DNA of 64,000 bases from contig JAFKFH010000012.1 of the NCBI GenBank assembly GCA_017307375.1, positions 62,001 to 126,000 of the forward strand. The letters run 5' to 3'. Source of the stretch: Alphaproteobacteria bacterium. Its GTDB lineage: Bacteria; Pseudomonadota; Alphaproteobacteria; Ferrovibrionales; Ferrovibrionaceae. Both the position numbers and the translations under genes were made by a program. Below are positions 8,720-33,016 of the stretch, one piece after another; position 1 is the stretch's first letter; every line of letters begins with the position of its first letter. Below the pieces are notes generated by a model. It did no database searches. It saw only the letters and a program-made list of their open reading frames with translations, and was not told the DNA's origin.

Positions 8720-9142
8720 ATGACGCCGCAGGACATCGCACTGGTCCAGCAAAGCTTCACCCTGGTCGCACCGAACAAGGAGGCGGTCGCCGCCGCGTTC
8801 TATGCCCGGCTGTTCGAAATCGATCCGGCGCTGCAGCCGCTGTTCCGGGGCGACCTGCGGTCGCAGGGCATCAAGCTGATGGGCGCGCTGACCCTCGTCG
8901 TCACCCAGCTCAATCGCCTGGAGACCATTCTCGACGACGTGAAGTCGCTGGCCCGCCGTCATGTCGGCTATGGCGTCACCGACCAGCACTACGCGACCGT
9001 CGGCCAGGCGCTGCTCGACACCCTCCAGTCCGGACTGGGCGAGGCGTTCACGCCGGAACTGCGCGCCGCCTGGACCCGCGCCTACACCCTGCTCTCCGGC
9101 GCGATGATCGCGGCGGCGGCAGAGGTCGGCGCGGCCGCCTGA
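8720..9142 (+). CDS. Single-domain globin
   Basis: A 140-residue globin related to the heme domain of flavohaemoglobins and Vitreoscilla-type haemoglobin. The proximal histidine is H81 in ARRHVGYGV, followed by the family pattern H-Y-x3-G at 91-95; FYARLF near residue 27 carries the B10 tyrosine and a Gln near 49 fits the distal E7 position. There is no reductase domain, so it needs an external electron donor. Such globins bind O2 and detoxify NO. A GGGAG ribosome-binding site precedes the ATG. It ends 11 bases from the stop of the converging M20 gene. Confidence 0.88.
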   Translation: MTPQDIALVQQSFTLVAPNKEAVAAAFYARLFEIDPALQPLFRGDLRSQGIKLMGALTLVVTQLNRLETILDDVKSLARRHVGYGVTDQHYATVGQALLDTLQSGLGEAFTPELRAAWTRAYTLLSGAMIAAAAEVGAAA

Positions 9143-15462: not shown

Positions 15463-16397
15463 TTCACGATCAGCTTGGCGGGATCGAGCTTGGTCTGCAG
15501 CATTTCCTGCTTCTGCATGACCTCGATCCACCAGGCGAGCTGGGCTTCGGTGACGACCGAGGACGGCTCGGAGATCTGGATCGCCTTCATCACCTCGGGC
15601 GGCAGCTTGATGTACTTGGCGATATGCTCGCGGGTCTTGGCCATGTTCGGATCGGCCTTGATGAAGGTCACCGCCTCGGCCAGCGCGGCCTGGAACCCCT
15701 TGACCGCCGCCGGGTTCTTGGTCGCCCATTCGCGTGTCGAGGCATAGAGGATCGAGGGCTGGCCCTCGGGCAGGTCGGCCAGGAAGTTCGAGATCAGCAC
15801 GCCGACGCCCGACGACAGGATGCGCACCTTGAACGGATCGGCGGTGATCACCGCGTCGACGGTGCCGGCCTTCAGCACGTCGTTCTGCGTCGGAAAGCCG
15901 ACCTCGATGAAGGTGACCTGCTTCGGATCGACGCCATTGGCGATCAGCCACTGGCGGAACAGCACATGCAGGAACGCGCCGAGGCCGGGGGCGCCGACCT
16001 TCTTGCCGACGAAATCCTTCGGCCCCTTGATGTTGGCCTTCGGGTTGCCGACGACGGCGACCGCCGAGGCGGTCGACTTGGCCGTCACCGCCGCCTCGGC
16101 GATGGCGACGAGATCGAGGCCGCCGTCGATCGCCTGCAGCATCACCGACGGGGTCGGCCCGCCCACCTGCAGCGAGCCCGCCATGATCGCGGCGGGGATC
16201 GTCGAATTGAGGCCGATCAGCGTCAGGTCGACATCGAGGCCGTTCTTGGCGAAATAGCCTTCTTCCTTCGCCACGAAGACCGAGGCGAAATCGCTGACGG
16301 CGGTGTAGCCGAGATTGATCTTGGTCTGCGCCGAAGCGCTAAACGCGACGCCGGCCGCCAGCACGGCGACGGCGAGGCCCTTCATCAGGCTTTTCAT
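15459..16397 (-). CDS. ABC transporter substrate-binding protein, SsuA/THI5-like
   Basis: A 312-residue periplasmic protein with a signal peptide (residues 1-23, cleavage after SASA). The mature start, KINLGYTAVSDFASVFVAKEEGYF, is typical of the NMT1/THI5/SsuA family that serves NitT/TauT importers. The ligand is unknown, but the operon partners (cupin, FAH-type hydrolase, cyclase) suggest an aromatic or keto acid (inference). Its GGAGGAGACG ribosome-binding site lies inside the last codons of the GntR gene, with which it shares 59 bases. Confidence 0.9.
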   Translation of the reverse strand: MKSLMKGLAVAVLAAGVAFSASAQTKINLGYTAVSDFASVFVAKEEGYFAKNGLDVDLTLIGLNSTIPAAIMAGSLQVGGPTPSVMLQAIDGGLDLVAIAEAAVTAKSTASAVAVVGNPKANIKGPKDFVGKKVGAPGLGAFLHVLFRQWLIANGVDPKQVTFIEVGFPTQNDVLKAGTVDAVITADPFKVRILSSGVGVLISNFLADLPEGQPSILYASTREWATKNPAAVKGFQAALAEAVTFIKADPNMAKTREHIAKYIKLPPEVMKAIQISEPSSVVTEAQLAWWIEVMQKQEMLQTKLDPAKLIVK

Positions 16398-17151
16398 GGG
16401 TGGTCGTCTCCTCCGGGTTGATCACTTTGTATTTATTGGCATCGGCCAGATCGCTACCCGCCGGGTAGACGATCAGGATGGTCGATGCGAGGTGTTCGGC
16501 CAGCTTGCGGCAGGCCGGCTCGACCTGGCGCTGGAGAACGAGATCGACGAGTTCCTGGTGTTCGTCGTCCAGGGTCGCCGGCAGCTTGAAGCACGTCATC
16601 ATCACGCGGCGATAGCGATAGGCCTGGTCGTAGAGCATCGCGTGCATCTCCAGGAGACGCGGCGAGCCGCAGGCGGCGATCAGCGCGGTATGAAACTGTT
16701 TGTGGACGGCGTCGAACTCGGCCACGCCTTCCGAGAAATCCTGCTGGCTGCGCGCGGTGAAGCGGCGCATCCGATGCAGGCAGGCCACGATCTGCGCCTC
16801 CCACAGGTCGTCGCCGCGCGCCATCGCCAGGCGCAGCGCCTCCAGCTCGATGACGGTGCGGGCGCGGACGATATCCTCGAGATCCTCGCGGCTCATCGGG
16901 GCGACGCGAAAACCGCGCTGGCCCGAGGCCAGGACGAGGCCGTGCGAGACGAGCCGCGACAGCCCCTCGCGCAGCGGCGTCGCACCGATGCCGAACTGCC
17001 GGGCGAGATCGGCGATGCGCAGCCGGGCATCCGGGGCCAGGTCGCCGGCCAGGATCGCCTGCTGCAGCACCGCGGCAGCCCGTTCCGCCAGCGTGTCGGG
17101 CGACAGCGCGGCGGTCGGCGGCAAGGTCGATGAAGGCGTCCCGGCAAGCAT
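16339..17151 (-). CDS. GntR-family (FCD) transcriptional regulator
   Basis: A 270-residue regulator with an N-terminal winged helix (about residues 18-80; IADLARQFGIGATPLREGLSRL) and a C-terminal FCD ligand domain in which D, H and E residues such as EFDAVHKQFHTALI form the usual metal/effector site. I start at ATG 17151 (MLAGTP); the open frame extends to a TTG at 17187. The C-terminus runs 59 bases into the binding-protein gene, so regulator and transporter are coupled. It probably represses both divergent operons from the AT-rich palindrome between them. Confidence 0.85.
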   Translation of the reverse strand: MLAGTPSSTLPPTAALSPDTLAERAAAVLQQAILAGDLAPDARLRIADLARQFGIGATPLREGLSRLVSHGLVLASGQRGFRVAPMSREDLEDIVRARTVIELEALRLAMARGDDLWEAQIVACLHRMRRFTARSQQDFSEGVAEFDAVHKQFHTALIAACGSPRLLEMHAMLYDQAYRYRRVMMTCFKLPATLDDEHQELVDLVLQRQVEPACRKLAEHLASTILIVYPAGSDLADANKYKVINPEETTTHEKPDEGPRRRRAGGRRRV

Positions 17152-17187
17152 GAGCCAGACTGTGCCATGCCGTCGCCGGGTCGGCAA

Positions 17188-17250
17188 ATTCTTTATATAC
17201 GAACCGAAAAAATATATATATTTTGCCCGAACAGATATAACCCGAGGAAA
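17188..17250. promoter_or_regulatory. Divergent AT-rich promoter with 16-bp palindrome
   Basis: This short stretch is strikingly AT-rich in a GC-rich window and separates the GntR-led operon from the FAH-family operon. It contains a perfect palindrome, AAAATATATATATTTT, at 17209-17224, flanked by an outer inverted pair TTATAT (17193-17198) and ATATAA (17235-17240). The position suits an operator for the adjacent GntR regulator. A CGAGGAAAC ribosome-binding site follows for the plus-strand gene. Confidence 0.55.
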
Positions 17251-17255
17251 CGCAC

Positions 17256-19117: not shown

Positions 19118-20107
19118 ATGGCCCCCGTCTCGCTCAGCATCATCGGCTACGGCATCATGGGCGAGCGGCTGTTGCGCGCCGCCCTCGACCACGACCCCGC
19201 CGTCGTCACCGTCGCCGGCGTCTGGGACCCCTCGCCCACCGCGATGGCGCGGCTGCGGGAAGGCCTGCCCCAGGTCCGGCACTTCGCCACGCCCGACGAG
19301 GCGGTCGCGGCCTGCGACTGCCTTTACGTCGCCTCGCCGCCGTCAAGCCATCTCGATCATGCCGAGCGCGGCTTTGCCGCGGGCAAGGCCGTGTTCTGCG
19401 AAAAGCCGCTGTCGGTCGATGTCGCCGCCGCCCGGTCCTTCGCCGCCGGGGTTGCCGCCCGCAAGGAGCGCGCCGCGGTGAACTTTCCCTTCACCTCGTC
19501 GTTTGCCGTCGACCAGCTGCGCCAGTGGATGACCGACGGCACGGTCGGGACCCCGCAGGCCGTCGATATCGAGATCGCCTTCGCCGGCTGGCCGCGCCCC
19601 TGGCAGGTCGATGCGGCAGCCTGGCTCGATGCCACGCCGCAAGGGGGCTTCACCCGCGAGGTGGTTTCCCACTTCCTGTTTCTGACCGGCCGGCTGCTCG
19701 GCCCCCTCGCCCTCGGCCGGCACGCGGTGTCCTATCCCGAGGCGGGCAAGTCGGAACGCACGATCACGGCCGACCTGACGGCCGCCAGCCTGCCGATCCG
19801 CCTTGCCGGCAGCGTCGGCACCACGGACAAGCCCGACCACAACCTCTGGGTCATCGAGGGATCCGCGGGCGCCGTGCGCCTGCGCGACTGGGCGATCGCC
19901 GAACGGCGCATGCCCGACGGCCGCTGGCAGGAAGCCCCCGACGCCATGCCGAACGAAAAGGCCCGGCCGCTGGTGCTGCGCCGCCAGCTCGACCAGGTCG
20001 TCTCACTGACCCGCGGCGAGCCGCAGAAGCTCGCTTCGATCGGCGAGGCGCTGGCCGTCCAGGAAATCGTCGAGACGATCCTGAAGGGCCAGCACGGCGT
20101 CAGTTGA
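19118..20107 (+). CDS. Gfo/Idh/MocA-family oxidoreductase
   Basis: A 329-residue NAD(P)-dependent sugar dehydrogenase. The Rossmann motif is [12 protein letters not shown] near residue 8, and the CEKPLSVDV block near 93 contains the family Glu-Lys-Pro. The C-terminal alpha/beta domain starts near residue 120. It likely oxidises a sugar or sugar acid feeding the adjacent dehydratase. The gene follows the terminator closely, so its promoter must lie within that short gap or upstream transcription leaks through. Its last 8 bases overlap the 3' end of the converging IlvD/Edd gene. Confidence 0.85.
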
Positions 20108-21824
20108 TCTCGGGTTCCGGCACCGGCTCGGCCGTGCGGTGCAGGAAGTCGAAGTCGCAGCCTTCGTCGGCCTGGGTGACGTGGCTGGCAAACATCTGGC
20201 CATAGCCGCGCGAATAGATCACCGGCGGCTGAACCCAGGCGGCGCGGCGGCGGGCCAGTTCGTCTTCCGGCACCAGCAGGTCGAGGCGCCGGGCCTCGAC
20301 GTCCAGCGAGATCAGGTCGCCGTCCTGGACCAGGGCCAGCGGCCCGCCGACATGGCTTTCGGGCGCGACGTGCAGCACGCAGGTGCCGTAGCTGGTGCCG
20401 CTCATCCGCGCGTCCGAGATGCGCACGAGATCGCGAACGCCCTGCTCCAGCAGCTGCCTGGGCAGCGGCAGCATGCCGCTTTCCGGCATGCCGGGGCCGC
20501 CGAGCGGGCCTGACTGGCGCAGCACCATCACCGTATCCTTGGTGAACGGCAGCGCGGGATCGTCCAGGCGATTCTTCAGGTCCTTGTAGTCGTTGAAGAC
20601 GATGGCCGGTCCGGTATGGCGCAACAGATGCTCGGAGGCCGCCGCATGCTTGATGACGGCACCGTTCGGGGCCAGGCTGCCGCGCAGGATCGCCAGCCCA
20701 CCCTCGGCCTTCACCGGCTTGTCCAGCGGACGGATGACTTCATCCTCGAACACCTCGGCGCCTTCGAGATTCCGGCCGAGCGACCGGCCGTTGACCGTGG
20801 CACAGCCGAGGTCGAGCAGCGGCCCGAGACGGCCGAGCAAGGCACGCGAGCCGCCGGCGTAATAAAGGTCCTCCATCAGATAGCGGCCGGCCGGGCGCAG
20901 ATCGGCGATCAGCGGCGTACCGCGGGCGGCGGCATCGAAACGGTCGAGATCGACCTTGATGCCGAGGCGGCCGGCCATGGCGACCAGATGGATGATCGCG
21001 TTGGTCGACCCGCCGCAGGCCATCAGGGTGACGATGGCGTTCTGGAACGAGGCGTCGGTGACCAGGGTCGACGGCTTGCGGTCCTGCCATACCATCTCGA
21101 CGATCTGACGGCCGGACTCGGTGGCCAGCCGCGAATGCGCGCTGTCGGCCGCCGGAATCGCGGCGGCCCCCGGCAGGGTCATGCCGAGCACCTCGGCGAT
21201 CAGCGCCATCGTCGACGCGGTACCCATCGTCATGCAGGTGCCGAACGAGCGGGCGATCCCGTCCTCGATCTCGCCCCAGGCGGTTTCGTTCAGCGTACCC
21301 GCGCGCTTCTCGGCCCAGTATTTCCACACGTCCGAGCCCGAACCGAGCACGTCCTTGCGCCAATGGCCGCGCAGCATCGGACCGGCAGGCACGAAGATCG
21401 CCGGCAGATCCATGCTGAAGGCACCCATCAGCATGGCCGGCACGGTCTTGTCGCAGCCGCCGAGCAGCACGATGCCGTCGACCGGATTCGAGCGCGCCAG
21501 TTCCTCGACCTCCATGGCCAGGAAATTGCGATAGAGCATCGTCGTCGGCTTCATCAGCGTCTCGCCCAGCGACATCGCCGGGATCTCCATCGGAAAGCCG
21601 CCGGCCTGCCAGACGCCGCGCTTCACCTCCTCGGCACGGGTACGGAAATGCGCATGGCAGGGATTGGCTTCCGACCAGGTGTTGATGATGCCGATCACCG
21701 GCTTGCCGGCATAATCCTCGGCGGCATAGCCCATCTGCTTGGTACGCGAGCGATGGCCGAACGAGCGCAAATCCTCGACGCCGTACCAACGGTGGCTGCG
21801 CAGCGTTTCGGGTCGCTTGGACAT
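20100..21824 (-). CDS. IlvD/Edd-family sugar-acid dehydratase (L-arabinonate dehydratase-like)
   Basis: A 574-residue iron-sulfur dehydratase. Three conserved cysteines that bind the cluster are visible: C56 (NPCHAHF), C124 (LGGCDKT) and C197 (GTCMTMG). The N-terminal block (SHRWYG, then NTWSEANPC) resembles aldonate dehydratases more than branched-chain dihydroxyacid dehydratase. It would remove water from an aldonate or aldarate to give a 2-keto-3-deoxy acid. I start at ATG 21824 with a GGGGAGGAAA ribosome-binding site, 9 codons inside the longest frame. It is divergent from a DHDPS-superfamily gene that could process its product. Confidence 0.85.
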
Positions 21825-21852: not shown

Positions 21853-21905
21853 CTGTCTTACAACATTACATTCTGATTGACAAGCTGGCGGCCTGCCCAT
21901 AGTTT
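21853..21905. promoter_or_regulatory. Back-to-back promoters with operator-like site
   Basis: Plus strand: TTGACA (21877-21882), 17-bp spacer, TAGTTT (21900-21905), about 31 bases before the DHDPS-family ATG. Minus strand: TTGTCA (complement of 21878-21883), 17-bp spacer, TAAGAC (complement of 21855-21860), driving the dehydratase. The two -35 boxes overlap. CTGTCTTACAA (21853-21863) overlaps the minus-strand -10 and matches the TTGT-N3-ACAA operator of FCD-type GntR regulators with one mismatch. Confidence 0.6.
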
Positions 21906-21936
21906 CGGCAGCATCAGAGCACGAAGGTCCCCGCCG

Positions 21937-22851
21937 ATGAAGACGTCAGCCGTCACCCCAGCCGATTTCTCCGCCTCCGTCTTCTCGGTGCCGCCGCTGG
22001 CGCGCCGGGCCGACCTGTCGCTCGATTTCGAGGCGAACCGCAAGCTGATCCGCCATATCGAGGCCGGCGGGGTTCACCACCTGCTCTATGGTGGCAACGC
22101 CAATCTCTATCACATCGAGGCGGGCGAATTCGCCGACCTGCTCGGCTTCCTGGCCGAGGCGGCAAGCCCCGACAGCTGGGTGATCCCGGCAATCGGCCCC
22201 GACTACGGCAAGATGCGGGATCAGGCCCGGATCTTGCGCGACCACAAGTTTCCGACCGTTCTGACCCTGCCGATGGGCCAGGCTACCCATGAGGCGGGCG
22301 TGGCCCTCGGCCTCGCCCGCGTCGCCGAGACCTTCGGCCGGCCGCTGATGCTCTACATCAAGGGCGACGGCTATATCGCCCCGGCCGCGGTCGGCCGCCT
22401 GGTGCGAGAGGGCGCGGTCTGCGGCATCAAATACGCCATCGACCGCCGCGACCCGCGCGAGGATGCCTATCTCACGGCGCTGCTCGACCATGTCGACCGC
22501 GGGATCGTGGTCAGCGGCATGGGCGAGCGTCCGGCCGTGGCCCATCTCCAGCATTTCGGCCTCGCCGGCTTCACCTCCGGCCTCGTCTGCATCAGCCCGG
22601 CGGCAGCGCAGAAAATCCTGAAGAGCGCGCAGGCCGGCGACTTCGACGCCGCGGCCGCCCAGGCCGCCAAGTTCAAGCCGCTCGAGGATGCCCGCGAGAA
22701 GCTCGGCTTCATCCGGGTGCTGCAATCGCTGGTGCGGCTGGCCGATGTCGCCGATACCGGCCCGTTGCTGCCCTTCCTGGCCAACCTCTCGCCGGCCGAG
22801 GAAGAAACGCTGAAGCCGCTGCTGGCGACGTTCCTGGAGGCGACGCGGTAA
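21937..22851 (+). CDS. DHDPS-superfamily aldolase/dehydratase (DapA-like)
   Basis: A 304-residue class I Schiff-base TIM-barrel enzyme. K165 (CGIKYAIDR) is in the Schiff-base position and Y140 (LMLYIKG) in the proton-relay position. The usual GTTGE phosphate/carboxylate loop is replaced by GGNANLY (about 52-58), so the substrate probably differs from pyruvate plus semialdehyde. The divergent IlvD/Edd dehydratase suggests it acts on a 2-keto-3-deoxy sugar acid (inference). I start at ATG 21937; an upstream in-frame codon would overlap the promoter. Confidence 0.8.
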   Translation: MKTSAVTPADFSASVFSVPPLARRADLSLDFEANRKLIRHIEAGGVHHLLYGGNANLYHIEAGEFADLLGFLAEAASPDSWVIPAIGPDYGKMRDQARILRDHKFPTVLTLPMGQATHEAGVALGLARVAETFGRPLMLYIKGDGYIAPAAVGRLVREGAVCGIKYAIDRRDPREDAYLTALLDHVDRGIVVSGMGERPAVAHLQHFGLAGFTSGLVCISPAAAQKILKSAQAGDFDAAAAQAAKFKPLEDAREKLGFIRVLQSLVRLADVADTGPLLPFLANLSPAEEETLKPLLATFLEATR

Positions 22852-22884
22852 GACGCCGACCGTCGCCGCCGGGCCGACGATATT

Positions 22885-23005
22885 CCCATGATCGTCAGCC
22901 CGGACTGAGCGAAGCGGCGATCCGGGATCCAGGACCAGCTACGCGCAACGCTCCTCCGGATTCCGGCTTGCGCCGGAATGACGATGGCCTGATGACGATG
23001 GCCTG
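22885..23005. repeat. REP-like intergenic palindromic element with 14-bp tandem duplication
   Basis: The gap between two converging genes carries a hairpin (ATTCCGGC 22960-22967, loop TTGC, GCCGGAAT 22972-22979) of the kind widely dispersed in alphaproteobacterial intergenic regions, whose reverse translation reads as the familiar IPAQAGI string. It is followed by a perfect tandem duplication of ATGACGATGGCCTG (22978-22991 and 22992-23005). Some tools may call a spurious protein here. It probably acts as a transcription end or structural repeat. Confidence 0.6.
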
Positions 23006-23029
23006 CTTGCCTCGGCCCGGGCGAAATGC

Positions 23030-23911
23030 CTAGCCCTTGAAGCGCGGTTCCTCCAGCCCCTGCACGCCGGCATCGACGGCAAACAGGCCGCCGGCCTGGG
23101 GCTGGTTCGACCGGTCGACGCCGTCGCCGATTGAGGTGACGTAGATCGTGCGCAGGTCGGCGCCGCCGAAAGCCGGCATGCTCGGTTTCTGGACCGGTAC
23201 CGCGATGCGCCGATCGATCTTGCCGGCCGGGGTGAACCGGACCAGTTCCCATCCGTCCGCCGCAGCCATCCAGTAGCAACCGTCGGCATCGACCGCCGCG
23301 CCGTCGGGCCGACCCGGCATGCCGTTGGTGTCGACGAAAACCCGGCGGTTGTCGATGCGGCCTTCCGCCAGATCGAAATCGAACGCCCAGATGGTGCGGA
23401 CGGCGACATTGGAATCGGACAGGTAGAGGATCTTGTCGTCCGGCGAGAAGGCCAGGCCGTTCGAGACGATGAGATCGGGCACCATCGCGGTGACCGCGCC
23501 ATCGAGCCCCAGCCGGTAGAGCGTGCCCTCGGCCTGCGGCGGCCGCGGCGGGTCATGCATCGTGCCCGCCCAGAAGCGCCCGGCGCGGTCGCAGCGGCCG
23601 TCGTTCATCCGGTTGCCGGGCTTGCCCACCTCGGCGACGGCAAGCAGCGTCGTCGCCCCGCCATGCCGGTCGAAGCGATAGAACCCGTCGGCCATCGCCA
23701 GCACCACCCCGCCCGCCTCGGTCAGGCCGAGGCAGCCGGGCGGCCCTGGCACCTTCCAGGCCTCGTTGCGGCCCGACGAGGGATCGAAGCGGTTGACCTT
23801 GCGCCCCTTGATGTCGACCCACCACAACACGCGCTCGCGCCCGCACCAGACCGGCGACTCGCCGATCAGGGCCCGGGCGTCCAGGACACATTCGACCTTC
23901 GGATCGGCCAT
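23030..23911 (-). CDS. SMP-30/gluconolactonase family lactonase
   Basis: A 293-residue six-bladed beta-propeller lactonase. A metal-binding Glu is in GESPVW near residue 18, GNRMNDGRCDRAGRFWAGTM (about 94-113) holds conserved Asn/Asp ligands, and SNGLAFSPDDKILYLSDS (about 150-167) the catalytic region. It hydrolyses sugar-acid lactones, which is exactly the product type of the nearby uronate dehydrogenase. It starts 1 base after the stop of the FadR-type regulator gene, so the two are co-transcribed. Confidence 0.87.
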   Translation of the reverse strand: MADPKVECVLDARALIGESPVWCGRERVLWWVDIKGRKVNRFDPSSGRNEAWKVPGPPGCLGLTEAGGVVLAMADGFYRFDRHGGATTLLAVAEVGKPGNRMNDGRCDRAGRFWAGTMHDPPRPPQAEGTLYRLGLDGAVTAMVPDLIVSNGLAFSPDDKILYLSDSNVAVRTIWAFDFDLAEGRIDNRRVFVDTNGMPGRPDGAAVDADGCYWMAAADGWELVRFTPAGKIDRRIAVPVQKPSMPAFGGADLRTIYVTSIGDGVDRSNQPQAGGLFAVDAGVQGLEEPRFKG

Positions 23912-23912
23912 C

Positions 23913-24662
23913 TCAGGGTTCCATGCTGTCGGTCAGCACGCGGGCGCGCGCGTTCTCGATATGGTTGCGCATTGCCGCACGCGCGGCATCGGCATCCTCG
24001 GACTTGATCGCGGCGACGACCTCGTGATGTTCGGCCTGCACCTTGCGCATGCGCGCGATCGACCGCTTCAGCGACAGCGACCGGGCGACATGCATGCCCT
24101 GGATCGCCTGGCCGGCCACGGCGCGCAGGCTGGTCTCGAAGATCTTGTTGCGGGTGGCCTGGGCGATCGCCATGTGGAAGCGGACATCCGCCTCGGAACC
24201 GACCTCGCCCGCCTCGATCACCCGGTCGAGTTCGGCCAGCGCGGCCTCGATGCGCGCGACGTCGTCGTCGGTCCGCCGCAAGGCGGCCAGCGCCGCCGCC
24301 TCGCCCTCCAGCGCGATCCGGAACTCGAAGCAGCGCATCAGGTCGGCGATCGAGCCGACCGGGGCGATCGTCGTCAGGTCCTGGCTGGGCCGGCGCTGGA
24401 CATAGGTACCCGACCCCTGGCGCGATACCACCATGCCGTCGGCCTGCAGCCGCGACAGCGCCTCGCGCACCACCGGTCGCGACACGCCGAACTCCTCGCA
24501 GAGCCGGGCTTCCGACGGCAGACGCTCGCCCTCGGCCAGTTCGCCGGCGACGATGCGATGCAAGATGCGTTCGTAGAGCTGATCGCCGAGGCGCTGCGCG
24601 CGCACGGCGGTCTGCGGCGCGCGCGGGGTAGCTGGGGTTGCCCTGTTCGATGCGGGTTTCAT
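23913..24662 (-). CDS. FadR-subfamily GntR regulator
   Basis: A 249-residue repressor with an N-terminal winged helix (about residues 25-90; LCEEFGVSRPVVREALSRLQADGMV) and a C-terminal FCD domain (about 100-235) with the acidic/His ligand residues (EADVRFHMAIAQATRN). I start at ATG 24662 (MKPASN). It is divergent from uronate dehydrogenase and co-directional with the lactonase, and a TTGT-N3-GCAA site lies in the shared promoter. It probably senses a uronate or aldarate and represses this island (inference). Confidence 0.88.
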   Translation of the reverse strand: MKPASNRATPATPRAPQTAVRAQRLGDQLYERILHRIVAGELAEGERLPSEARLCEEFGVSRPVVREALSRLQADGMVVSRQGSGTYVQRRPSQDLTTIAPVGSIADLMRCFEFRIALEGEAAALAALRRTDDDVARIEAALAELDRVIEAGEVGSEADVRFHMAIAQATRNKIFETSLRAVAGQAIQGMHVARSLSLKRSIARMRKVQAEHHEVVAAIKSEDADAARAAMRNHIENARARVLTDSMEP

Positions 24663-24715
24663 GGCAACCGAATTATAGGCCGCGGCCACCCGCTCCGCAA
24701 AGCAATCTTCTCGAT

Positions 24716-24739
24716 TTGTCTGGCAAGTTTACCTAAGAT
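24716..24739. promoter_or_regulatory. Operator-like site and -10 between regulator and udh
   Basis: TTGTCTGGCAA at 24716-24726 matches the FCD/GntR consensus TTGT-N3-ACAA with one mismatch and is followed by GTTTAC, a context shared with the site before dctP. A TAAGAT -10-like hexamer for the plus strand is at 24734-24739, so a bound repressor would block uronate dehydrogenase transcription. Confidence 0.5.
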
Positions 24740-24782
24740 TGCCGATCAACAATCACCACGCCCGCAGGAGGCATTTCGTCCC

Positions 24783-25583
24783 ATGTCCGATATCAAACCG
24801 CTGCTGCTCACCGGTGCCGCCGGCGCGCTGGGCCGCTGGCTGCGCCCCCGGCTGATCAAGCGCTACGGCCGGCTGATCTCGTCCGACATCGTCGACGGCG
24901 GCCCGGCGCTGAAGAACGAGGAATTCGTCATCTGCGACCTGGCCGACGGCGTGGCGGTCGAGCGGCTGGTCGACAAGGCATCGGCCATCCTGCATTTCGG
25001 CGGCGTCTCGGTCGAGGCGCCGTTCATGAAGATCATGCACGCCAATATCCAGGGGTGCTACAACGTGTTCGAGGCCGCGCGGCTGCAGGGCAAGAAGCGC
25101 ATCGTCTATGCCTCGTCCAACCATGTGATCGGCTTCCACGAAACGACGACGCGGCTCGATGCCAATTCGCCGATGAAACCCGATACCTATTACGGCGTGT
25201 CGAAGGCGTTCGGCGAGAACCTCGCCAGCCTGTATGCCGACAAGCACGGCATGGACATCGCGTCCCTGCGCATCGGCACCTCGATCGCCGAACCGACCGA
25301 TCCGCGCCATCTGTCGACCTGGCTGGCCCGCGAAGATCTGCTCGAGCTGATCGATGCCTGCCTGAAGGCCGACAAGCTCGGCCATACCGTGATGTACGGC
25401 GCTTCGGCCAATACCCGCGGCTGGTGGGACAACGGCCTGGCGCCGCATGTCGATTACAAGCCGAAAAAGAATGCCGAACAGTTCGCCGACAAACTGCTGC
25501 CCAGGGGCGACCGCCGCAACAAGAAGGCGATCGCCGTGCGCTACCAGGGCGGCCCGTTCTGCAGCGACGGCTACGACCGCTGA
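24783..25583 (+). CDS. udh: Uronate dehydrogenase (NAD-dependent epimerase/dehydratase family)
   Basis: A 266-residue extended short-chain dehydrogenase, the normal length of bacterial uronate dehydrogenases. The nucleotide motif is LTGAAGALGRWL near residue 9; the catalytic Tyr and Lys are in YYGVSKA near 136-142. It oxidises galacturonate or glucuronate to the aldarolactone with NAD. A CAGGAGG ribosome-binding site precedes ATG 24783. The context (lactonase, KdgD, TRAP transporter) supports the oxidative uronate pathway. It is followed by a strong hairpin shared with the converging TRAP operon. Confidence 0.85.
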   Translation: MSDIKPLLLTGAAGALGRWLRPRLIKRYGRLISSDIVDGGPALKNEEFVICDLADGVAVERLVDKASAILHFGGVSVEAPFMKIMHANIQGCYNVFEAARLQGKKRIVYASSNHVIGFHETTTRLDANSPMKPDTYYGVSKAFGENLASLYADKHGMDIASLRIGTSIAEPTDPRHLSTWLAREDLLELIDACLKADKLGHTVMYGASANTRGWWDNGLAPHVDYKPKKNAEQFADKLLPRGDRRNKKAIAVRYQGGPFCSDGYDR

Positions 25584-25589
25584 AGGGAC

Positions 25590-25613
25590 GAAGGGCGCCG
25601 GAAGGCGCCCTTC
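25590..25613. terminator. Bidirectional hairpin terminator
   Basis: A perfect 10-bp stem GAAGGGCGCC/GGCGCCCTTC closed by a GGAA tetraloop lies between the udh stop and the dctM stop, 7 and 26 bases away. No long T-run follows, but the tail-to-tail location and stability indicate termination from both sides. Confidence 0.75.
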
Positions 25614-25638
25614 GCTTCTCGTCCGGCGATATCCGCGG

Positions 25639-26925
25639 CTACTTGCCCAGCACGAGATGGGGCAAGGTCAGCGAGAAGGCCGGCACGTAGGTCACCAGCA
25701 TCAGGGCTGCGATCAGCGCCGTGTAGAACGGCCAGATCGTGCGCATGACATGGCCGACCGAGACCTCGCCGATGGCGCAGCCGACGAACTGGGTGGTACC
25801 GACCGGCGGGGTGTTCAAGCCCAGCGCACAATTGATCAGCATCATCATGCCGAACTGCACGGGGTCCATGCCATACTGGGCGCAGATCGGCATGAAGATC
25901 GGCGTGCAGATCAGGATCGTCGGCGCCATGTCGAGGAACGTGCCCAGCACGAACAGGATGATGTTGACCATCAGGAAGATCATCCAGGGCTGGGTCGAGA
26001 TATGCGACAGCGCATTCCCGGTCAGCTCGGCGACGCTGTAGAGGCTGATCAGGTAGCCGAAGGTGGCCGAGATGCCAATCAGCAGCAGGACGATGCCGGT
26101 GGTCTTGGCGGCCTTGGTGGCCGCCTTGAGGAATTTCTCCCAGGTCAGGCTGCGATAGACCAGCGTCGTCAGCAGCAGCGAGTAGATCACCGCGACGGCC
26201 GAGGATTCGGAGGCGGTGAAGACGCCCGAAACGATGCCGGCCAGGATGATGACGACGATGAACAACCCCGGCAGCGACGCCGCGAACGAACGCAGCACGA
26301 TGTCCCAGCCGGGGAAGCTGCCGGCCGGGTAGCCGCGCCTGACCGCGACCAGATAGGCAGCGGCCAGATTGCAGATCGTCAGCAGGATCGCCGGGCCGAG
26401 GCCGGCCAGGATCAGCGACAGGATCGAGACCTTGCCCGAGGCGGCGAGCGCGAAGATGATGATGTTATGGCTGGTCGGCATCAGCGCGCCGACCAGCGAG
26501 GCATGGGTCGTCACGTTGACGGCGTAGTCGGCGTGATACCCCTCCTTCTTCATCATCGGGATCATCACCGCGCCCATCGCCGAGACGTCGGCGACCGGCG
26601 AGCCGGACACGCCGCCGAACAGCGTGCAGGCGACGACGTTCGACATGCCCAGCCCGCCGCGGATATGGCCGACCGCCGACTTGGCGAAATTGACGATGCG
26701 GTCGGCGACGCCGCCATGCAGCATCAGCTCGCCCGAGAAGATGAAGAACGGAATGGCGAGGAACGAGAAGACGCTCATCCCCGCGGTCATCCGCTGGAAC
26801 AGCACCTCCATCGGCAGGCCTTCATAGGCGATCGCGCCCATTGCCGACAGGCCGATCGAGAAGGCGACGGGAACGCCGAGCAGCAGGAAGCCGGCGAAGA
26901 GAATGGTCAGGATGCTCAGCGCCAT
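25639..26925 (-). CDS. dctM: TRAP transporter large permease (DctM)
   Basis: A 428-residue integral membrane protein with about twelve hydrophobic segments, matching the usual size. The GVSGSPVADVSAMGAVMIP block near residue 105 and LNTPPVGTTQFVGCAIG near 375 are typical of DctM subunits. It forms the Na+-coupled channel of a TRAP importer. Its first 10 bases overlap the end of the DctQ gene. The position between udh and kdgD points to uronate or aldarate as substrate. Confidence 0.93.
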   Translation of the reverse strand: MALSILTILFAGFLLLGVPVAFSIGLSAMGAIAYEGLPMEVLFQRMTAGMSVFSFLAIPFFIFSGELMLHGGVADRIVNFAKSAVGHIRGGLGMSNVVACTLFGGVSGSPVADVSAMGAVMIPMMKKEGYHADYAVNVTTHASLVGALMPTSHNIIIFALAASGKVSILSLILAGLGPAILLTICNLAAAYLVAVRRGYPAGSFPGWDIVLRSFAASLPGLFIVVIILAGIVSGVFTASESSAVAVIYSLLLTTLVYRSLTWEKFLKAATKAAKTTGIVLLLIGISATFGYLISLYSVAELTGNALSHISTQPWMIFLMVNIILFVLGTFLDMAPTILICTPIFMPICAQYGMDPVQFGMMMLINCALGLNTPPVGTTQFVGCAIGEVSVGHVMRTIWPFYTALIAALMLVTYVPAFSLTLPHLVLGK

Positions 26926-27458
26926 GTGACTTCAAGCTCCACGCCGGTGAACAGCGCCAGGATGTGGTCGATCGAGAACAGGACGATCAGCGCCCCGGAG
27001 ATGACGGTCGGCAGGTAAGTCAACCCTTCGGATACGCCGAGGATCGGGATGTTGTAGCTGATCACCGACTGGACCAGGCCCCAGCCGAACCACACCATCA
27101 TCGTGCCGAAGAAGCCGATCAGGCCGTGGATCAGCACCTGCAGCCACAGGCGCAGCGCCGACGGCGCCAGTTCCATCAGCGATTCGAAGCCGATATGGCC
27201 GGCATCGCGCACGGCGATGGCCGCGCCGAACATCGTGACCCACAGGATCAGCAGGAGCGCCAGCGATTCCGCCCAGGTCGGGGTATCGTTGAGGATGTAG
27301 CGGCCGAACACCTGGTAGGCCACGGCCAGCACGATGGTCAGCAGACCGACCACCGCGGCAAGCAGGACGATACGTGCCAGCCAGAAGCAGGCACGGGAAT
27401 AGAGTCCCGGCCGCTGGGCGGCCGGGACGGATGCAAGGATCGCGCTGTGTGTGTTCAT
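26916..27458 (-). CDS. dctQ: TRAP transporter small permease (DctQ)
   Basis: A 180-residue membrane protein with four hydrophobic segments, including VGLLTIVLAVAYQVFGRYIL near residues 36-60 and the conserved T-W-A-E-S-L-A block near 60. This is the DctQ pattern. It pairs with DctM, which its end overlaps by 10 bases. An 85-base gap with a large hairpin separates it from the upstream binding-protein gene. Confidence 0.9.
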   Translation of the reverse strand: MNTHSAILASVPAAQRPGLYSRACFWLARIVLLAAVVGLLTIVLAVAYQVFGRYILNDTPTWAESLALLLILWVTMFGAAIAVRDAGHIGFESLMELAPSALRLWLQVLIHGLIGFFGTMMVWFGWGLVQSVISYNIPILGVSEGLTYLPTVISGALIVLFSIDHILALFTGVELEVTWR

Positions 27459-27488
27459 GCGCCGGCTTGTCCAATCGGGGAACAGGGG

Positions 27489-27525
27489 CGGCGGCCGAAT
27501 GCCCCGGTCGGGGCGCCGGCCGCCG
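27489..27525 (-). other. Stable intra-operon hairpin between dctP and dctQ
   Basis: A nested stem (CGGCGGCCG 27489-27497 with CGGCCGCCG 27517-27525, inner CCCCG 27502-27506 with CGGGG 27509-27513) lies between the binding-protein stop and the permease genes. Without a T-run it is more likely an mRNA-stabilising or partial-termination element raising binding protein over permease output. Confidence 0.5.
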
Positions 27526-27543
27526 GGACTGACGGATCAGGCG

Positions 27544-28512
27544 CTATTTGGTCGCCTGAATATCCTCGATCATCTTCTTCAGCTCGGGCTTGTTCGCAAA
27601 CGAGTCGTAGACCGGCTTCATCGCGTCGATGAACGGCTTCTTGTCGGCCAGCGGAATGACCTCGACGCCGGCCTTGCGCACGACCTCCTCCGACTGCTTT
27701 TCGCGGGCCTGCCACAGCTCGCGCATCTTGGGCACGGAATCCTTGGCGGCCTGCTTGATCAGCTTCTGGTCGTCGGGCGACAGCCCGTCCCAGACCTTCT
27801 TGGACATCACGAACAACTCGGGCGACATCGAGTGCTCGGACAGCGTATAGAACTTCGCCACCTCGAAATGCCGGCTGGATTCGAAGCTCGGCCAGTTGTT
27901 CTCGGCGGCGTCGACGACGCCGGTCTTCAGCGCGGTATAGACCTCGCCATAGGGCATCGGCGTCGGGTTGGCGCCCAGCGCCTTGATCATGCCGACGAAC
28001 AGGTCGGACTGCTGGACGCGGATCTTCATGCCCTTGAGGTCTTCGAGCGCCTTCACCGGCTTCTTGACCGTGTAGAACGAGCGGGCGCCCGAGTCATAGA
28101 AGGCCAGGCCGACGAAGCCCTGGGATTCCAGCGATTTCAGGATCTGCTCGCCGATCGGGCCGTCCATCACCTTGTGCATGTGATCGACCGAGCGGAACAG
28201 GAACGGCAGGGTCGGGACCGCGGTCTCGGGCACGATGTTGTTGAACGGCGCCATGTTGATGCGGTTGAAGTCGAGCGCGCCGAGCTTGGTCTGCCCGATC
28301 GTGTCCTTCTCCTCGCCCAGCGTGCCGGAATTGTAGACCTTCAGCGTGTACTTGCCGTTCGAGCGCTGCTTCAGCAGTTCGCCGAAATACTCGACCGCCG
28401 CGACCGTCGGATAGCCCGGCGGATGGATGTCGGCCGACTTGAATTCCTTGGCCGCCACCGGGCCGGCCACGAACGCGGCCAGCGCCGCGGCAATCACTGC
28501 ATTGCGGTGCAT
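27544..28512 (-). CDS. dctP: TRAP transporter substrate-binding protein (DctP family)
   Basis: A 322-residue periplasmic protein with a signal peptide (residues 1-21, cleavage after GPVAA). The mature protein starts KEFKSADIHPPGYPTVAAVEYF, as in DctP proteins; GMKIRVQQSD near 165 holds the conserved Arg that binds the ligand carboxylate. GVVDAAENNWPSFESS near 210 is also typical. It is the first gene of the dctPQM operon, with a candidate promoter and operator just upstream. The ligand is likely a uronate or aldarate (inference from context). Confidence 0.92.
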   Translation of the reverse strand: MHRNAVIAAALAAFVAGPVAAKEFKSADIHPPGYPTVAAVEYFGELLKQRSNGKYTLKVYNSGTLGEEKDTIGQTKLGALDFNRINMAPFNNIVPETAVPTLPFLFRSVDHMHKVMDGPIGEQILKSLESQGFVGLAFYDSGARSFYTVKKPVKALEDLKGMKIRVQQSDLFVGMIKALGANPTPMPYGEVYTALKTGVVDAAENNWPSFESSRHFEVAKFYTLSEHSMSPELFVMSKKVWDGLSPDDQKLIKQAAKDSVPKMRELWQAREKQSEEVVRKAGVEVIPLADKKPFIDAMKPVYDSFANKPELKKMIEDIQATK

Positions 28513-28548
28513 CTGGTTTTCTCCTCCCTAGAGATTCTTTGGGTTAAG

Positions 28549-28587
28549 GGTCTAGCAAGACGTCGGCAATTTGTCAAACAACTTTAC
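28549..28587 (-). promoter_or_regulatory. dctPQM promoter with perfect TTGT-N3-ACAA operator
   Basis: On the minus strand TTGACA (complement of 28572-28577) is followed after 17 bp by TAGACC (complement of 28549-28554), about 37 bases before the dctP start. TTGTCAAACAA at 28571-28581 is an exact match to the FCD/GntR consensus TTGT-N3-ACAA and covers the -35 box. The next bases (CTTTAC) resemble those after the site near udh. Confidence 0.65.
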
Positions 28588-28599
28588 AGGTGATGTGGG

Positions 28600-29511
28600 C
28601 TACGCCGCCTCGGCCCAGGCAATCAGCGGTTTCAGCATGTCATGCTCCTCGGCGGTGCAATCCATCAGCGGCGTGCGCACCGGGCCGGCATCGCGCCCGA
28701 CCAGCCTGGCCCCCGCCTTGATGATCGACACGGCATAACCCGGCCGGCGGTTGCGGATCGCGGCATAAGGCATGAAGAAGCCGTCGAGCAGTCGGCCGAT
28801 GGTCGCGGCATCCTCGGCCGCGACCGCCTCATAGAAGCGCATGGCCATGCGCGGGACAAAATTGAACACCGCCGAGGAATAGACCGGCACGCCGATGGTC
28901 TTGTAGGCCGCGGCGAAGAATTCGGCGGTGGGCAGGCCGCCGAGATAGGCGAAGCGGTCGCCCAGCTTGCGGCGAATCGAGATCATCGGCTCCAGTTCGC
29001 CGATGCCGTCCTTGAAACCGATCAGGTTCGGGCATTCCTCGGCCAGCCGCGCCAGATGATCGGGACCCAGGCGGCAGGGGCCGCGGTTGTAGACGATCGC
29101 GCCGATGCCGACCGACCGGCAGATCGCCCGGACATGGCGGGACACGCCTTCCTGGTCGGTCTCGATCAGGTAGTGCGGCAGAATCAGGATGCCCGCCGCG
29201 CCACGCCGCTCGGCCTCGCGCGCCTGGGTGATGGCGATGCGCGTGCCGCAACCGACCCCGGCGATGATCGGCACCTGACCGGCGCTGCCCGCGACCGCCG
29301 CGCCGATGACCCGGCCATGCTCCTCGGGATCGAGCGAAAACAATTCGCCGGTCCCGCCGGCGGCAAACAGCGCCGAGGCGCCGAACGGCGCCAGCCAGTC
29401 GAGCCGGCGGCGATAGCCGTCCTCGTCGAACTCGCCGTCGGCCGTGAAGTCGGTGACGGGGAAGGACAGCAGGCCGGACGACAGCACGGCCTTCAAGGCA
29501 TTGGGCTCCAT
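28600..29511 (-). CDS. kdgD: 5-dehydro-4-deoxyglucarate dehydratase
   Basis: A 303-residue DHDPS-superfamily enzyme. The N-terminal [12 protein letters not shown] is a KdgD hallmark, GGTGE (52-56) is the family loop, Y141 (YNRG) and the Schiff-base lysine K167 ([10 protein letters not shown]) are in place. It dehydrates and decarboxylates 5-keto-4-deoxyglucarate to 2-oxoglutarate semialdehyde. This is the last committed step of the oxidative uronate/aldarate route before a semialdehyde dehydrogenase. It lies downstream of a FadR-type gene and has its own likely promoter. Confidence 0.9.
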
Positions 29512-29545
29512 GGCACCTCGACTAGTTCAGCGCAAATGACGGCTC

Positions 29546-29574
29546 GTCATATCATGACGTCAGTCATCATACAA
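29546..29574 (-). promoter_or_regulatory. Candidate kdgD promoter with inverted repeats
   Basis: On the minus strand TTGTAT (complement of 29569-29574), 17-bp spacer, TATGAC (complement of 29546-29551), about 35 bases before the kdgD start. The same bases hold overlapping inverted repeats, including GTCAT-ATC-ATGAC at 29546-29558 and a TTGT half-site, which could bind the FadR-type protein encoded directly upstream. Confidence 0.45.
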
Positions 29575-29587
29575 GCTGTGGCGCGTG

Positions 29588-30298
29588 TCACCCTTCGGTG
29601 GCGCGCCGGATCCGCTCGCGGCTGCCGGTGAGGTGCACGCGCATTGCCGCCCGGGCCGAATCGGGATCCTGGTCGGCGATCGCCTGGAAGATCGCGTTGT
29701 GCTCGCCGTTGACGCGGTCGAGATACTGGCGGCGCGAGGCCCCTTCGAGCTGAAAGGTCTGCACCCGCGTGCGCGGAATCAGCAGCGAGCCCAGGTAGTT
29801 GAACAGATGCAGAAAATAGCGGTTGCCGGTCGCTTCGGCGACGGTGCGGTGGAAATCGAGATCCGGGCCGATCGCGTCCTCGCCTGCGGCGATCGACGTC
29901 GCCATCCGCTCCAACGCGTCGCGCATGGTGGCAAGATGCTCCGGGCCGCGCCGCTGGGCGGCCAGGGCGGCGGCCTCCGCCTCGACCGAGATGCGCAGCT
30001 CGAGCACCGCGACCACCTCGTTCAATGCGCCGAGATTGGCCTCGTCGACGCGGAACGCCGGCGCGGCGGCCGGCTGCACGACGAAAGCCCCGACCCCCTG
30101 CTGGGTCGAGACCACGCCCGAGGCGCGCAAGGACGAGATCGCCTCGCGCACCACCGTGCGGCTGACCCCGAATTCGTCGATCAGTTCCTGCTCGCTCGGC
30201 AGTTTCTCGCCCGGCTTGATCTGCCCCTGGGCGATCCGCTCGCCCAGGGCCCTGGTCAGTTGCGAAGTCAGGGTCTCACGGCGGCGCAACGCGACCAC
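29588..30298 (-). CDS. FadR-subfamily GntR regulator
   Basis: A 236-residue repressor with an N-terminal winged helix (about residues 10-72; LIDEFGVSRTVVREAISSLRASGVV) and an FCD domain with DLDFHRTVAEATGNRYF (about 146-162) carrying metal/ligand residues. It shares overall plan with the regulator at 23913-24662 but is clearly a different protein. It is upstream of and co-directional with kdgD. A perfect TTGT-N3-ACAA palindrome lies about 50 bases before its start, consistent with autoregulation and control of the sugar-acid island. Confidence 0.9.
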   Translation of the reverse strand: MVALRRRETLTSQLTRALGERIAQGQIKPGEKLPSEQELIDEFGVSRTVVREAISSLRASGVVSTQQGVGAFVVQPAAAPAFRVDEANLGALNEVVAVLELRISVEAEAAALAAQRRGPEHLATMRDALERMATSIAAGEDAIGPDLDFHRTVAEATGNRYFLHLFNYLGSLLIPRTRVQTFQLEGASRRQYLDRVNGEHNAIFQAIADQDPDSARAAMRVHLTGSRERIRRATEG

Positions 30299-30348
30299 GG
30301 GCGGGCACTCCTCTGGCGAACGATCGCCGACTGGATATCACGCCCCCG

Positions 30349-30361
30349 CTTGTACGACAAG
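30349..30361. promoter_or_regulatory. Perfect FCD/GntR operator CTTGT-ACG-ACAAG
   Basis: CTTGTACGACAAG at 30349-30361 has perfect 5-bp arms around a 3-bp centre. It lies between the end of the upstream binding-protein gene (stop 30379) and the FadR-type start (30298), the expected place for an autoregulatory operator. Confidence 0.6.
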
Positions 30362-31987: not shown

Positions 31988-32041
31988 TAAATTGTCCACA
32001 TAGCAAAACATGAGTGCCTTTTAGCCGCCAAAACATTGGCG

Positions 32042-33016
32042 ATGGCCGAGCATACGGCCTATCCTGGCCGGCCGTGCGAAGGTAGCTGTCGAGGGCTGGA
32101 AGGCGTGGCGGAGCAGGAGCAGAGCGAGGTCAGCCCGCTCCAGATCGATCTGGCGCGCCAGATCCTGGACGAGGCGCGGCGCGAAGGCTGGAAGCTGGGC
32201 GACCGCATCCCGGAACAGCGCCTGGCCAGGCGGTTCGGCGTGTCGCGCTCGCCGGTGCGCGGCGCCCTGCTGCTGCTGGCCGAACGCGGGCTGATGCGGC
32301 TCGAACCGGGGCGCGGCTTTATCCTGGAGGCCGACCCCTCCGACATGGCGGGCGACGACGACCTGGTGCCCCCGTCAACGGCCGAGCAGTTGCACGGCAC
32401 GCTGCTGAGCGATCGCGCCTTGGGCCGCCTGCCGGCCGAGGTTTCGGAAACCGAGCTGACCGAACGCTACGGCGTCTCGCGCGGGGTGGTGCGGCGGGTG
32501 TTCATGCGGCTGGCGGCGGAAGGGCTGGCCGAACGCCAGCGCGGTCACGGCTGGCGTTTCGCCGACTCGCTCGACACCCCCGAGGCGATCGCGGAGAGCT
32601 ATCAGTTCCGGCTGGGCGTCGAATGCGTCGCGCTGCGCGCGCCGACGTTCCGCGCCGAACCCGAACGTCTGGCGCAGTTGCGCGACGCCCATCGGACTGT
32701 GCTCGACCGGCCGCTGGCCGGCATGACGCGCCAGACCTGGTTCGCCCTGAACGCCTCGTTCCACGAGACCCTGGCCGGCTGGTCGCACAACCGCTTCTTC
32801 GTGCAGGCGGTGCGCCAGCAGAACAACCTGCGGCGGATGAAGGAACTGGCGGTCTTCACCAGCCTCGACCCCGACCGCGTCCGCCAATCCTGCGACGAGC
32901 ATCTGGCGATCCTCGCCGCGATCGAGGACGGCGAGCTGGGCTTCGCCGAAGCCCTGCTGCGCCGCCATCTCGAACTGGCCGGCCGCCTCAGCGTCGGCCG
33001 CTACACGCCGGACTGA
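32042..33016 (+). CDS. GntR-family regulator with two winged-helix domains and FCD
   Basis: A 324-residue regulator whose layout is unusual. A first GntR winged helix spans about residues 33-97 (LARRFGVSRSPVRGALLLLAERGLM), and a second, independently recognisable one spans about 115-175 (LTERYGVSRGVVRRVFMRLAAEGLA). An FCD-like helical domain follows (about 180-320). ATG 32042 lacks a clear ribosome-binding site; GTG 32105, preceded by GAGGG, is a good alternative and keeps both winged helices. It is divergent from the orphan binding protein, its likely target. It could bind extended or paired operators (inference). Confidence 0.82.
   Translation: MAEHTAYPGRPCEGSCRGLEGVAEQEQSEVSPLQIDLARQILDEARREGWKLGDRIPEQRLARRFGVSRSPVRGALLLLAERGLMRLEPGRGFILEADPSDMAGDDDLVPPSTAEQLHGTLLSDRALGRLPAEVSETELTERYGVSRGVVRRVFMRLAAEGLAERQRGHGWRFADSLDTPEAIAESYQFRLGVECVALRAPTFRAEPERLAQLRDAHRTVLDRPLAGMTRQTWFALNASFHETLAGWSHNRFFVQAVRQQNNLRRMKELAVFTSLDPDRVRQSCDEHLAILAAIEDGELGFAEALLRRHLELAGRLSVGRYTPD

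Follow-up and report, generated by a model that had tools for sequence, protein, structure and literature searches.

Two FCD-type GntR regulators and two related putative operators in a sugar-acid gene island of a Ferrovibrionaceae bacterium

A sugar-acid gene island lies in a 64,000-nucleotide stretch of DNA, hereafter the window, from an alphaproteobacterium of the family Ferrovibrionaceae (assembly GCA_017307375.1, contig JAFKFH010000012.1, positions 62,001 to 126,000). The island encodes two FCD-type GntR regulators, here called GntR-A and GntR-B, and carries five putative operators. A preliminary description of the window had taken a shared TTGT-N3-ACAA core as the mark of a single regulon. 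Judged from the operators of orthologous loci, the island is probably divided between two paralogous FCD-type GntR repressors via two related, distinguishable operators.

Genes of the sugar-acid island

The following genes make up the island (coordinates in the window).

20100..21824, minus strand: IlvD/EDD sugar-acid dehydratase (L-arabinonate dehydratase model, 946.7 bits against a cut-off of 882)
21937..22851, plus strand: DHDPS-like protein, divergent member (PF00701, 30.7 bits)
23030..23911, minus strand: SMP-30/gluconolactonase-type lactonase (PF08450, 290.9 bits), immediately 3' of gntR-A
23913..24689, minus strand: GntR-A, FCD/FadR-type regulator (start GTG 24689 or ATG 24662; Pfam GntR and FCD)
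24783..25583, plus strand: NAD-dependent epimerase/dehydratase-family enzyme, probable udh (PF01370)
25639..28512, minus strand: TRAP transporter genes dctM, dctQ and dctP (family models)
28600..29511, minus strand: kdgD, 5-dehydro-4-deoxyglucarate dehydratase (TIGR03249, 406.9 bits against a cut-off of 373.95)
29588..30298, minus strand: GntR-B, FCD/FadR-type regulator (Pfam GntR and FCD)

The enzyme at 24783–25583 is probably uronate dehydrogenase (udh), a name taken from gene context; it matched no NCBIfam model above that model's own cut-off. Models for gli, gci, garD and gudD matched none of the scanned island genes. The DHDPS-like protein matched PF00701 weakly, yet has 56–62% identical homologues beside gntR-A in Elstera and in genomes G180 and G369. 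A TATAAT about 10 bp before ATG 24662 of gntR-A was seen by eye and was not listed by the promoter scan; given its closeness to this ATG, the gntR-A mRNA may be leaderless.

Putative operators and their rarity

Five putative operators were located in the island.

21853..21863, no strand assigned: GntR-A-type, CTGTCTTACAA (followed by CATTAC), in the dehydratase/DHDPS-like divergon
24716..24726, no strand assigned: GntR-A-type, TTGTCTGGCAA (followed by GTTTAC), in the gntR-A-lactonase/udh divergon
28571..28581, no strand assigned: GntR-A-type, TTGTCAAACAA (followed by CTTTAC), upstream of the TRAP operon
29564..29574, minus strand: GntR-B-type, TTGTATGATGA, 52 bp before kdgD
30350..30360, plus strand: GntR-B-type, TTGTACGACAA, 51 bp before gntR-B

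Four of these, all except 29564, had been reported previously as TTGT-N3-ACAA-like sites, and all four were found where they had been placed, in intergenic DNA ahead of different transcription units. The core is exact at 28571 and 30350 and has one mismatch at 21853 and 24716. Site 21853 lies upstream of both of its genes, 29 bp from the dehydratase ATG and 73 bp from that of the DHDPS-like gene; site 24716 stands 56 bp from udh on one side and, on the other, 26 bp (GTG start) or 53 bp (ATG start) from gntR-A, and site 28571 lies 58 bp before dctP. The common 3' flank noticed earlier at two sites is present and extends to a third (21853, 24716 and 28571; CTGTCTTACAACATTAC, TTGTCTGGCAAGTTTAC and TTGTCAAACAACTTTAC), and it is absent from 30350. 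What had been described as a TTGT half-site before kdgD is in fact the full operator of a second type at 29564–29574; the half-site reading was rejected, as the full TTGTAYGATGA is present and is conserved before kdgD in relatives.

The intergenic DNA of the island comprises 955 bases in 8 stretches by our own gene calls; two of these stretches reach into the start of a gene, gntR-A or dctQ. It held 4 core sites at ≤1 mismatch, compared with a mean of 0.146 in first-order Markov resampling of the same DNA, in which 0 of 3000 resamplings reached 4. Outside the island, the window has 2,794 intergenic bases, which held 0 core sites at ≤1 mismatch. Genome-wide, the exact core occurs at 20 places in 7.54 Mb (79 in the reversed-letter control), 2 of them in the island (Poisson P ~2.5e-4, for an interval itself chosen for its sites). 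The looser TNGT-N3-ACNA was found 9 times in the 64 kb window against 3.6 expected, with some copies within genes. The pattern TTGTCNNRCAANNTTAC, which was fitted to the island sites and whose counts show rarity only, had 2 exact matches in the genome, both in the island, and 5 at exactly 1 mismatch, including 21853; at ≤2 mismatches it was not enriched (76 matches versus 119 in the control).

All sites stand in promoter regions, as they would if they merely resembled the -35 and -10 elements of AT-rich promoter DNA. Such an artefact is highly improbable in view of the resampling, on which a chance origin of the island sites was rejected, the scarcity of exact copies in the genome, the conservation of the footprints across families and a sigma-70-like promoter scan that returned no match in the region.

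Two separate regulator lineages

Both regulators have an N-terminal winged helix-turn-helix (HTH) and a C-terminal FCD domain, with Pfam GntR and FCD scores of 84.5 and 94.4 bits for GntR-A and of 75.2 and 98.0 bits for GntR-B. Neither reached the curated cut-off of the NCBIfam models for UxuR, ExuR, LldR, PdhR, NanR or GlcC, the best named models being LldR for GntR-A (129.5 versus 311) and NanR for GntR-B (126.3 versus 260). The two proteins are 38% identical and fall into separate clades in a tree of 46 rows (support 100/100). They also occur apart: at E≤1e-60, in 385 genomes for each, 10 genomes had GntR-B without GntR-A and 8 had GntR-A without GntR-B. As to sequence presence only, the promoter of each regulator gene carries TKGT-N3-ACMA, with one mismatch for GntR-A (24716) and exactly for GntR-B (30350).

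The HTH motifs differ at position 39 (numbered as in PMC4494728, with 7 subtracted from the FadR residue), which is Thr in 23 of 23 GntR-B rows and Pro in 19 or, in Acidobacteria, Ala in 4 of the 23 GntR-A rows. This position is linked to the central operator bases in PMC4494728, where Thr tends to go with A/T, a non-significant trend. The agreement of Thr39 in GntR-B with a conserved A in the centre of its predicted operator is no more than suggestive.

Operators at GntR-A loci

Close GntR-A orthologues were rare, being found at E≤1e-60 in 11 of 385 class genomes, 8 of them at 47–53% identity. GntR-A was found in 1 of 398 genomes of a phylum sample, its own genome only, and, in a sample of 399 genomes from the order of a Betaproteobacterial genome, only in two already known. 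Plasmid matches were all below 60% identity (best 54%) and were excluded from matrix A, described below; at the 3 of 317 plasmid records examined, the neighbours belonged to other pathways.

Nine orthologous loci had 53–70% identity among the 16 matches listed. In Elstera and G180, gntR-A stands tail to tail with a DHDPS-like gene that has TTGTAAGACAA or TTGTAAGACCA upstream, and in G369 the two genes are divergent with TTGTAAGACGA between them. At four Acidobacterial loci in three genomes, gntR-A precedes a dehydratase of the island type, with 63–65% identity (in L069, 80% over a fragment at the contig end); the exact core lies upstream in 3 of the 4 loci and a one-mismatch core in L069. At one locus (L068), the core sites are found ahead of a TonB-receptor-like gene and in the gap that leads to a gene for an MFS-type transporter, both genes being named from translations. 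Four Betaproteobacterial loci have GTWAAG-TAGT-N3-ACAA at the gntR-A promoter, for example GTAAAGTAGTCAGACAA in L064, to be compared with GTAAACTTGCCAGACAA in the window. Other pathways adjoin these genes where annotated, and from the neighbours in L065 the Betaproteobacterial GntR-A relatives seem to serve another pathway. In L065, a short UGSC-family stretch (8797–9093) follows the orthologue, and genes for a tripartite tricarboxylate receptor and an FAD oxidoreductase are close by.

The pattern GTWAAGTWGTNNGACAA, written after both site sets were known, had 9 matches at ≤2 mismatches in the window's own genome (42 in the reversed control); 3 of these are the island sites, and the sole exact match is 28571. 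Dyad counting recovered pieces of the motifs in both the A and the B sets, with equally high GC-rich dyads in B.

Operators at GntR-B loci

In nine genomes of a sister genus, the gap between gntR-B and dctP contains two invariant boxes, TGTATGA.AA and TTGTATGAT, in mostly variable surroundings. The box by gntR-B reads TTGTATGAYAA (CTGTATGACAA in one genome) and that by dctP TTGTATGATRN; two genomes of another family have the same dctP box and ATGTATGACAA at gntR-B. Of all 22 orthologous loci, 16 have TTGTAYGACAA with no more than one mismatch at a distance of up to 450 bp from gntR-B.

A second form, TTGTAYGATGA, precedes kdgD in the window (29564), L100 (G180), L120 (Azospirillum sp. B510) and L121 (Phyllobacterium zundukense), and a variant, TTGTACGATGT, precedes kdgD in L102 and L116 (G369 and G292). 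Close kdgD homologues (E≤1e-90) were present in 14 of 365 class genomes, 7 of which, the window's included, also had GntR-B. In all 7, most of whose loci had helped define the pattern, an exact TTGTAYGAYRN lies ≤1.5 kb upstream, and in 4 it lies ≤100 bp from kdgD. In the other 7, presumed to belong to the sample searched for GntR-B and without a match in it, TTGTAYGAYRA was never exact within 1.5 kb, nor was TTGTAYGAYRN within 250 bp; one-mismatch sites occur in two of them, one of which has ATGTTTGACAA as well, 67 bp before kdgD. Azospirillum sp. B510 has an MFS transporter gene and garD after gntR-B and kdgD, an arrangement that fits an aldarate role of GntR-B.

In the window's own genome, TTGTAYGAYRA occurs 4 times in 7.54 Mb (19 in the reversed control). 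Two copies are in the island; of the others, one falls inside a called gene and the second stands ahead of a gene for a class-III aminotransferase. On contig C24 of G354, TTGTATGATAA sites stand upstream of two other FCD-GntR genes (L216 and L220), and the AYG centre is thus used by more than one FCD group.

Assignment of the five sites

Two matrices were built from the sites of other organisms only. Matrix A contained 13 hand-picked sites from 11 loci, including operator-like sites upstream of the DHDPS-like genes in Elstera and G180 and excluding the distant A-like loci. Matrix B contained 27 distinct sites from 17 of the 22 GntR-B loci; L111, L114, L115 and L122 did not contribute for want of a site near gntR-B, nor did L100, which has none at ≤1 mismatch. 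The five island sites scored as follows.

21853: A 21.1, B 16.0 bits (A minus B, +5.1)
24716: A 23.0, B 7.6 bits (+15.4)
28571: A 28.4, B 16.1 bits (+12.3)
29564: A 15.6, B 26.3 bits (-10.7)
30350: A 6.9, B 16.1 bits (-9.2)

These data split the sites 3:2 by 5–15 bits, and a single operator class for all sites was rejected on this result, with some overlap in the leave-out tests. In 297 kb of the window's own genome that included every exact core, matrix A ranked the three island A sites 1st, 3rd and 4th, with a site before an RraA-like gene on contig C13 2nd, and matrix B ranked 29564 1st and 30350 3rd. When the sister genus was left out of matrix B, the split became sharper (matrix B scores: 21853, 10.8; 24716, 9.6; 28571, 11.1; 29564, 22.5; 30350, 19.7).

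Several observations weigh against a division into two operator types. Matrix B gave 30350 the same score as 28571 and nearly that of 21853, all three below the C13 site at 17.6, and on the core alone 30350 was nearly even (A 17.8, B 19.2). The own class was best for 11 of 13 A sites in leave-one-out tests and for 22 of 27 B sites, with one tie, in leave-genus-out tests; outside sites had been chosen by core match, so only the centre and flank were independently tested. On the GntR-A side, Betaproteobacterial sites have TAGT where the core has TTGT, a single mismatch, the G..A[AT][GC] flank occurs in 7 of 7 proteobacterial and, contrary to expectation, 0 of 6 Acidobacterial matrix sites, and among the distant A-like loci (L103–L107, L118 and L119) the core precedes the regulator in 1 of 7 (L103). 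On the GntR-B side, L111, L114, L115 and L122 (4 of 22 loci) have no site near gntR-B at ≤2 mismatches. The B pattern is also not specific everywhere: the gntR-B locus holds 2 of 2 TTGTAYGAYRA matches in G014 and 2 of 4 in G011, compared with 1 of 6 in G180 and 1 of 7 in G354, where 3 matches lie upstream of two other FCD genes. The empty sigma-70-like scan counts here too, for the geometry of repression.

Separation of the A and B sites is good but not clean. The assignment of 30350 to GntR-B owes more to the conserved position of the site and to its AYG centre than to its score. Cross-binding by both regulators may occur, above all at the TRAP site 28571.

The observation that the same core precedes several units, with sites at both regulator genes, would also follow if one of the two proteins governed all of the island by means of a single operator, the second protein having unrelated targets. 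We regard this as improbable, since the two regulator promoters carry the operator types of their respective orthologues, and these types differ. Overlapping control deserves more weight, though it too is unlikely: both regulators would bind most or all of the five sites as homo- or heterodimers, giving one doubly controlled regulon like that of E. coli ExuR/UxuR. The cores are near-identical, site 28571 fits both matrices and differs from the GntR-B consensus by a single mismatch, and the matrices separate imperfectly. Overlap is opposed by the conserved centre (AYG versus NNG) and flanks, which differ between the orthologue groups, and by the genomes in which either regulator occurs alone, which indicate that each can work alone. 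This last point is weakened by the 8 GntR-A-only genomes, whose proteins, at 47–53% identity to GntR-A, are perhaps not true orthologues.

A probable division of the island, and the TRAP operon

Under divided control by two repressors, GntR-A would bind 21853, 24716 and 28571 and control the dehydratase/DHDPS-like pair, the gntR-A-lactonase/udh divergon and the TRAP operon, and GntR-B would bind 29564 and 30350 and control kdgD and its own gene. Each protein is predicted to repress at its own sites until a pathway acid releases it. For GntR-A this acid may be a uronate, a lactone or a pentonate; for GntR-B it may be an aldarate or the keto-deoxy product of one. GntR-A would thereby hold down entry and early steps (TRAP, udh and lactonase) together with the dehydratase/DHDPS-like pair, and GntR-B would hold down itself and kdgD, the step common to aldarate breakdown. 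Such split control would let kdgD respond to aldarates without uronates. The earlier proposals of an FCD-GntR operator, of autoregulation and of control over the dehydratase, udh and TRAP genes are supported by position and conservation. The proposal of one regulon held only in part: the sites are real and far above chance, but the orthologues carry different operators and the matrices divide the sites.

Among the genomes examined, 11 have gntR-B beside the TRAP genes but lack a GntR-A at E≤1e-60, and in 11 of 11 an exact TTGTAYGAYRN lies ≤250 bp before dctP. The window and G180 have both regulators; in each, the sole dctP site is one mismatch off TTGTAYGAYRN and scores higher with matrix A (28.4 versus 16.1 in the window, 16.1 versus 10.7 in G180), and kdgD retains an exact GntR-B box. 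G369 has both regulators and no TRAP genes within the stretches fetched. A possible, if doubtful, account is that the TRAP operon changed its regulator from GntR-B when GntR-A joined the island, via a site that both still read. If true, this hand-over would be a compact natural case of a catabolic operon changing regulators through near-identical operators.

Comparison with known systems

The gene content of the island resembles the GguR regulon of Halomonas (PMC5507952), in which a GntR-family regulator controls galactarate/glucarate genes and which in one strain also includes udh-gli-gci and the UxuPQM TRAP transporter. The island differs: it has two regulators, its lactonase is of the SMP-30 type and its dehydratase belongs to IlvD/EDD. 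It shares a probable udh, a lactonase and kdgD, along with a TRAP transporter, with the oxidative hexuronate pathway of udh, lactone opening and kdgD (PMC6353982), but lacks the gli, gci, garD and gudD matches noted above. The predicted division of the island is like that in E. coli, where the paralogous GntR regulators ExuR and UxuR divide and cross-regulate the hexuronate genes (PMC9369180). ExuR and UxuR serve the Ashwell pathway, whereas the island genes point to the oxidative one; exuR arose by uxuR duplication (PMC9369180), and unlike that pair the two regulators of the island occur apart in other genomes. In the main-text parts of Suvorova et al. 2015 (PMC4494728) that were consulted, no group of FadR/FCD operators combines an AYG centre with a TTGTAYGATGA variant. 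Our literature searches, and these only, turned up no open text in which the motif of GguR is listed or in which kdgD has a GntR operator.

The signal is real and belongs to an ordinary class of bacterial gene control. The analysis adds an operator of a second type, the site before kdgD and a possible regulator change at the TRAP operon. It also offers operator codes that can be tested for two regulators, both uncharacterised, of what is probably the oxidative breakdown of uronates and aldarates. A common core motif is insufficient to call one regulon where several FCD-GntR paralogues share a genome.

Core copies elsewhere and other FCD-GntR genes

The enrichment at uronate/aldarate genes anticipated for a genome scan was weak. 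Among the 18 exact cores outside the island, 9 lie within called genes and 9 are intergenic; neighbours were annotated for 4 of the latter (L148, L149, L150 and L158), 2 of which are near another FCD gene (C13 and C16) and 1 of which (C13) has sugar-acid-type neighbours. The C13 core precedes the RraA-like gene, an enolase-superfamily dehydratase gene lies between this and the FCD gene, and the FCD gene has its own one-mismatch core site upstream. The C16 core is flanked by an FCD gene and a nitroreductase gene. According to PMC4494728, TKGT-N3-ACMA is the operator of the whole FadR subfamily; because of this, and because the core also occurs near two other FCD genes here, the core alone cannot tie genes to one protein.

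At the C13 locus (L148, 4767–8827), the FCD-GntR, RraA-like and dehydratase genes are accompanied by a gene for an ABC binding protein. The dehydratase matched a galactonate-dehydratase model below its cut-off, and two operator-like sites, GTATATTTGTCTTACAA and GTATACTTGTCTGTCAA, have a GTATAY flank in common. The window itself encodes two further FCD-GntR proteins. One (16339–17255), CsiR-like below the cut-off, is divergent from a fumarylacetoacetate-hydrolase-like gene, and the gap between them has AT-rich stretches (TATATA) and no TTGT-N3-ACAA. The other (32036–33016) is double-headed, with two GntR winged HTH stretches ahead of one FCD domain.

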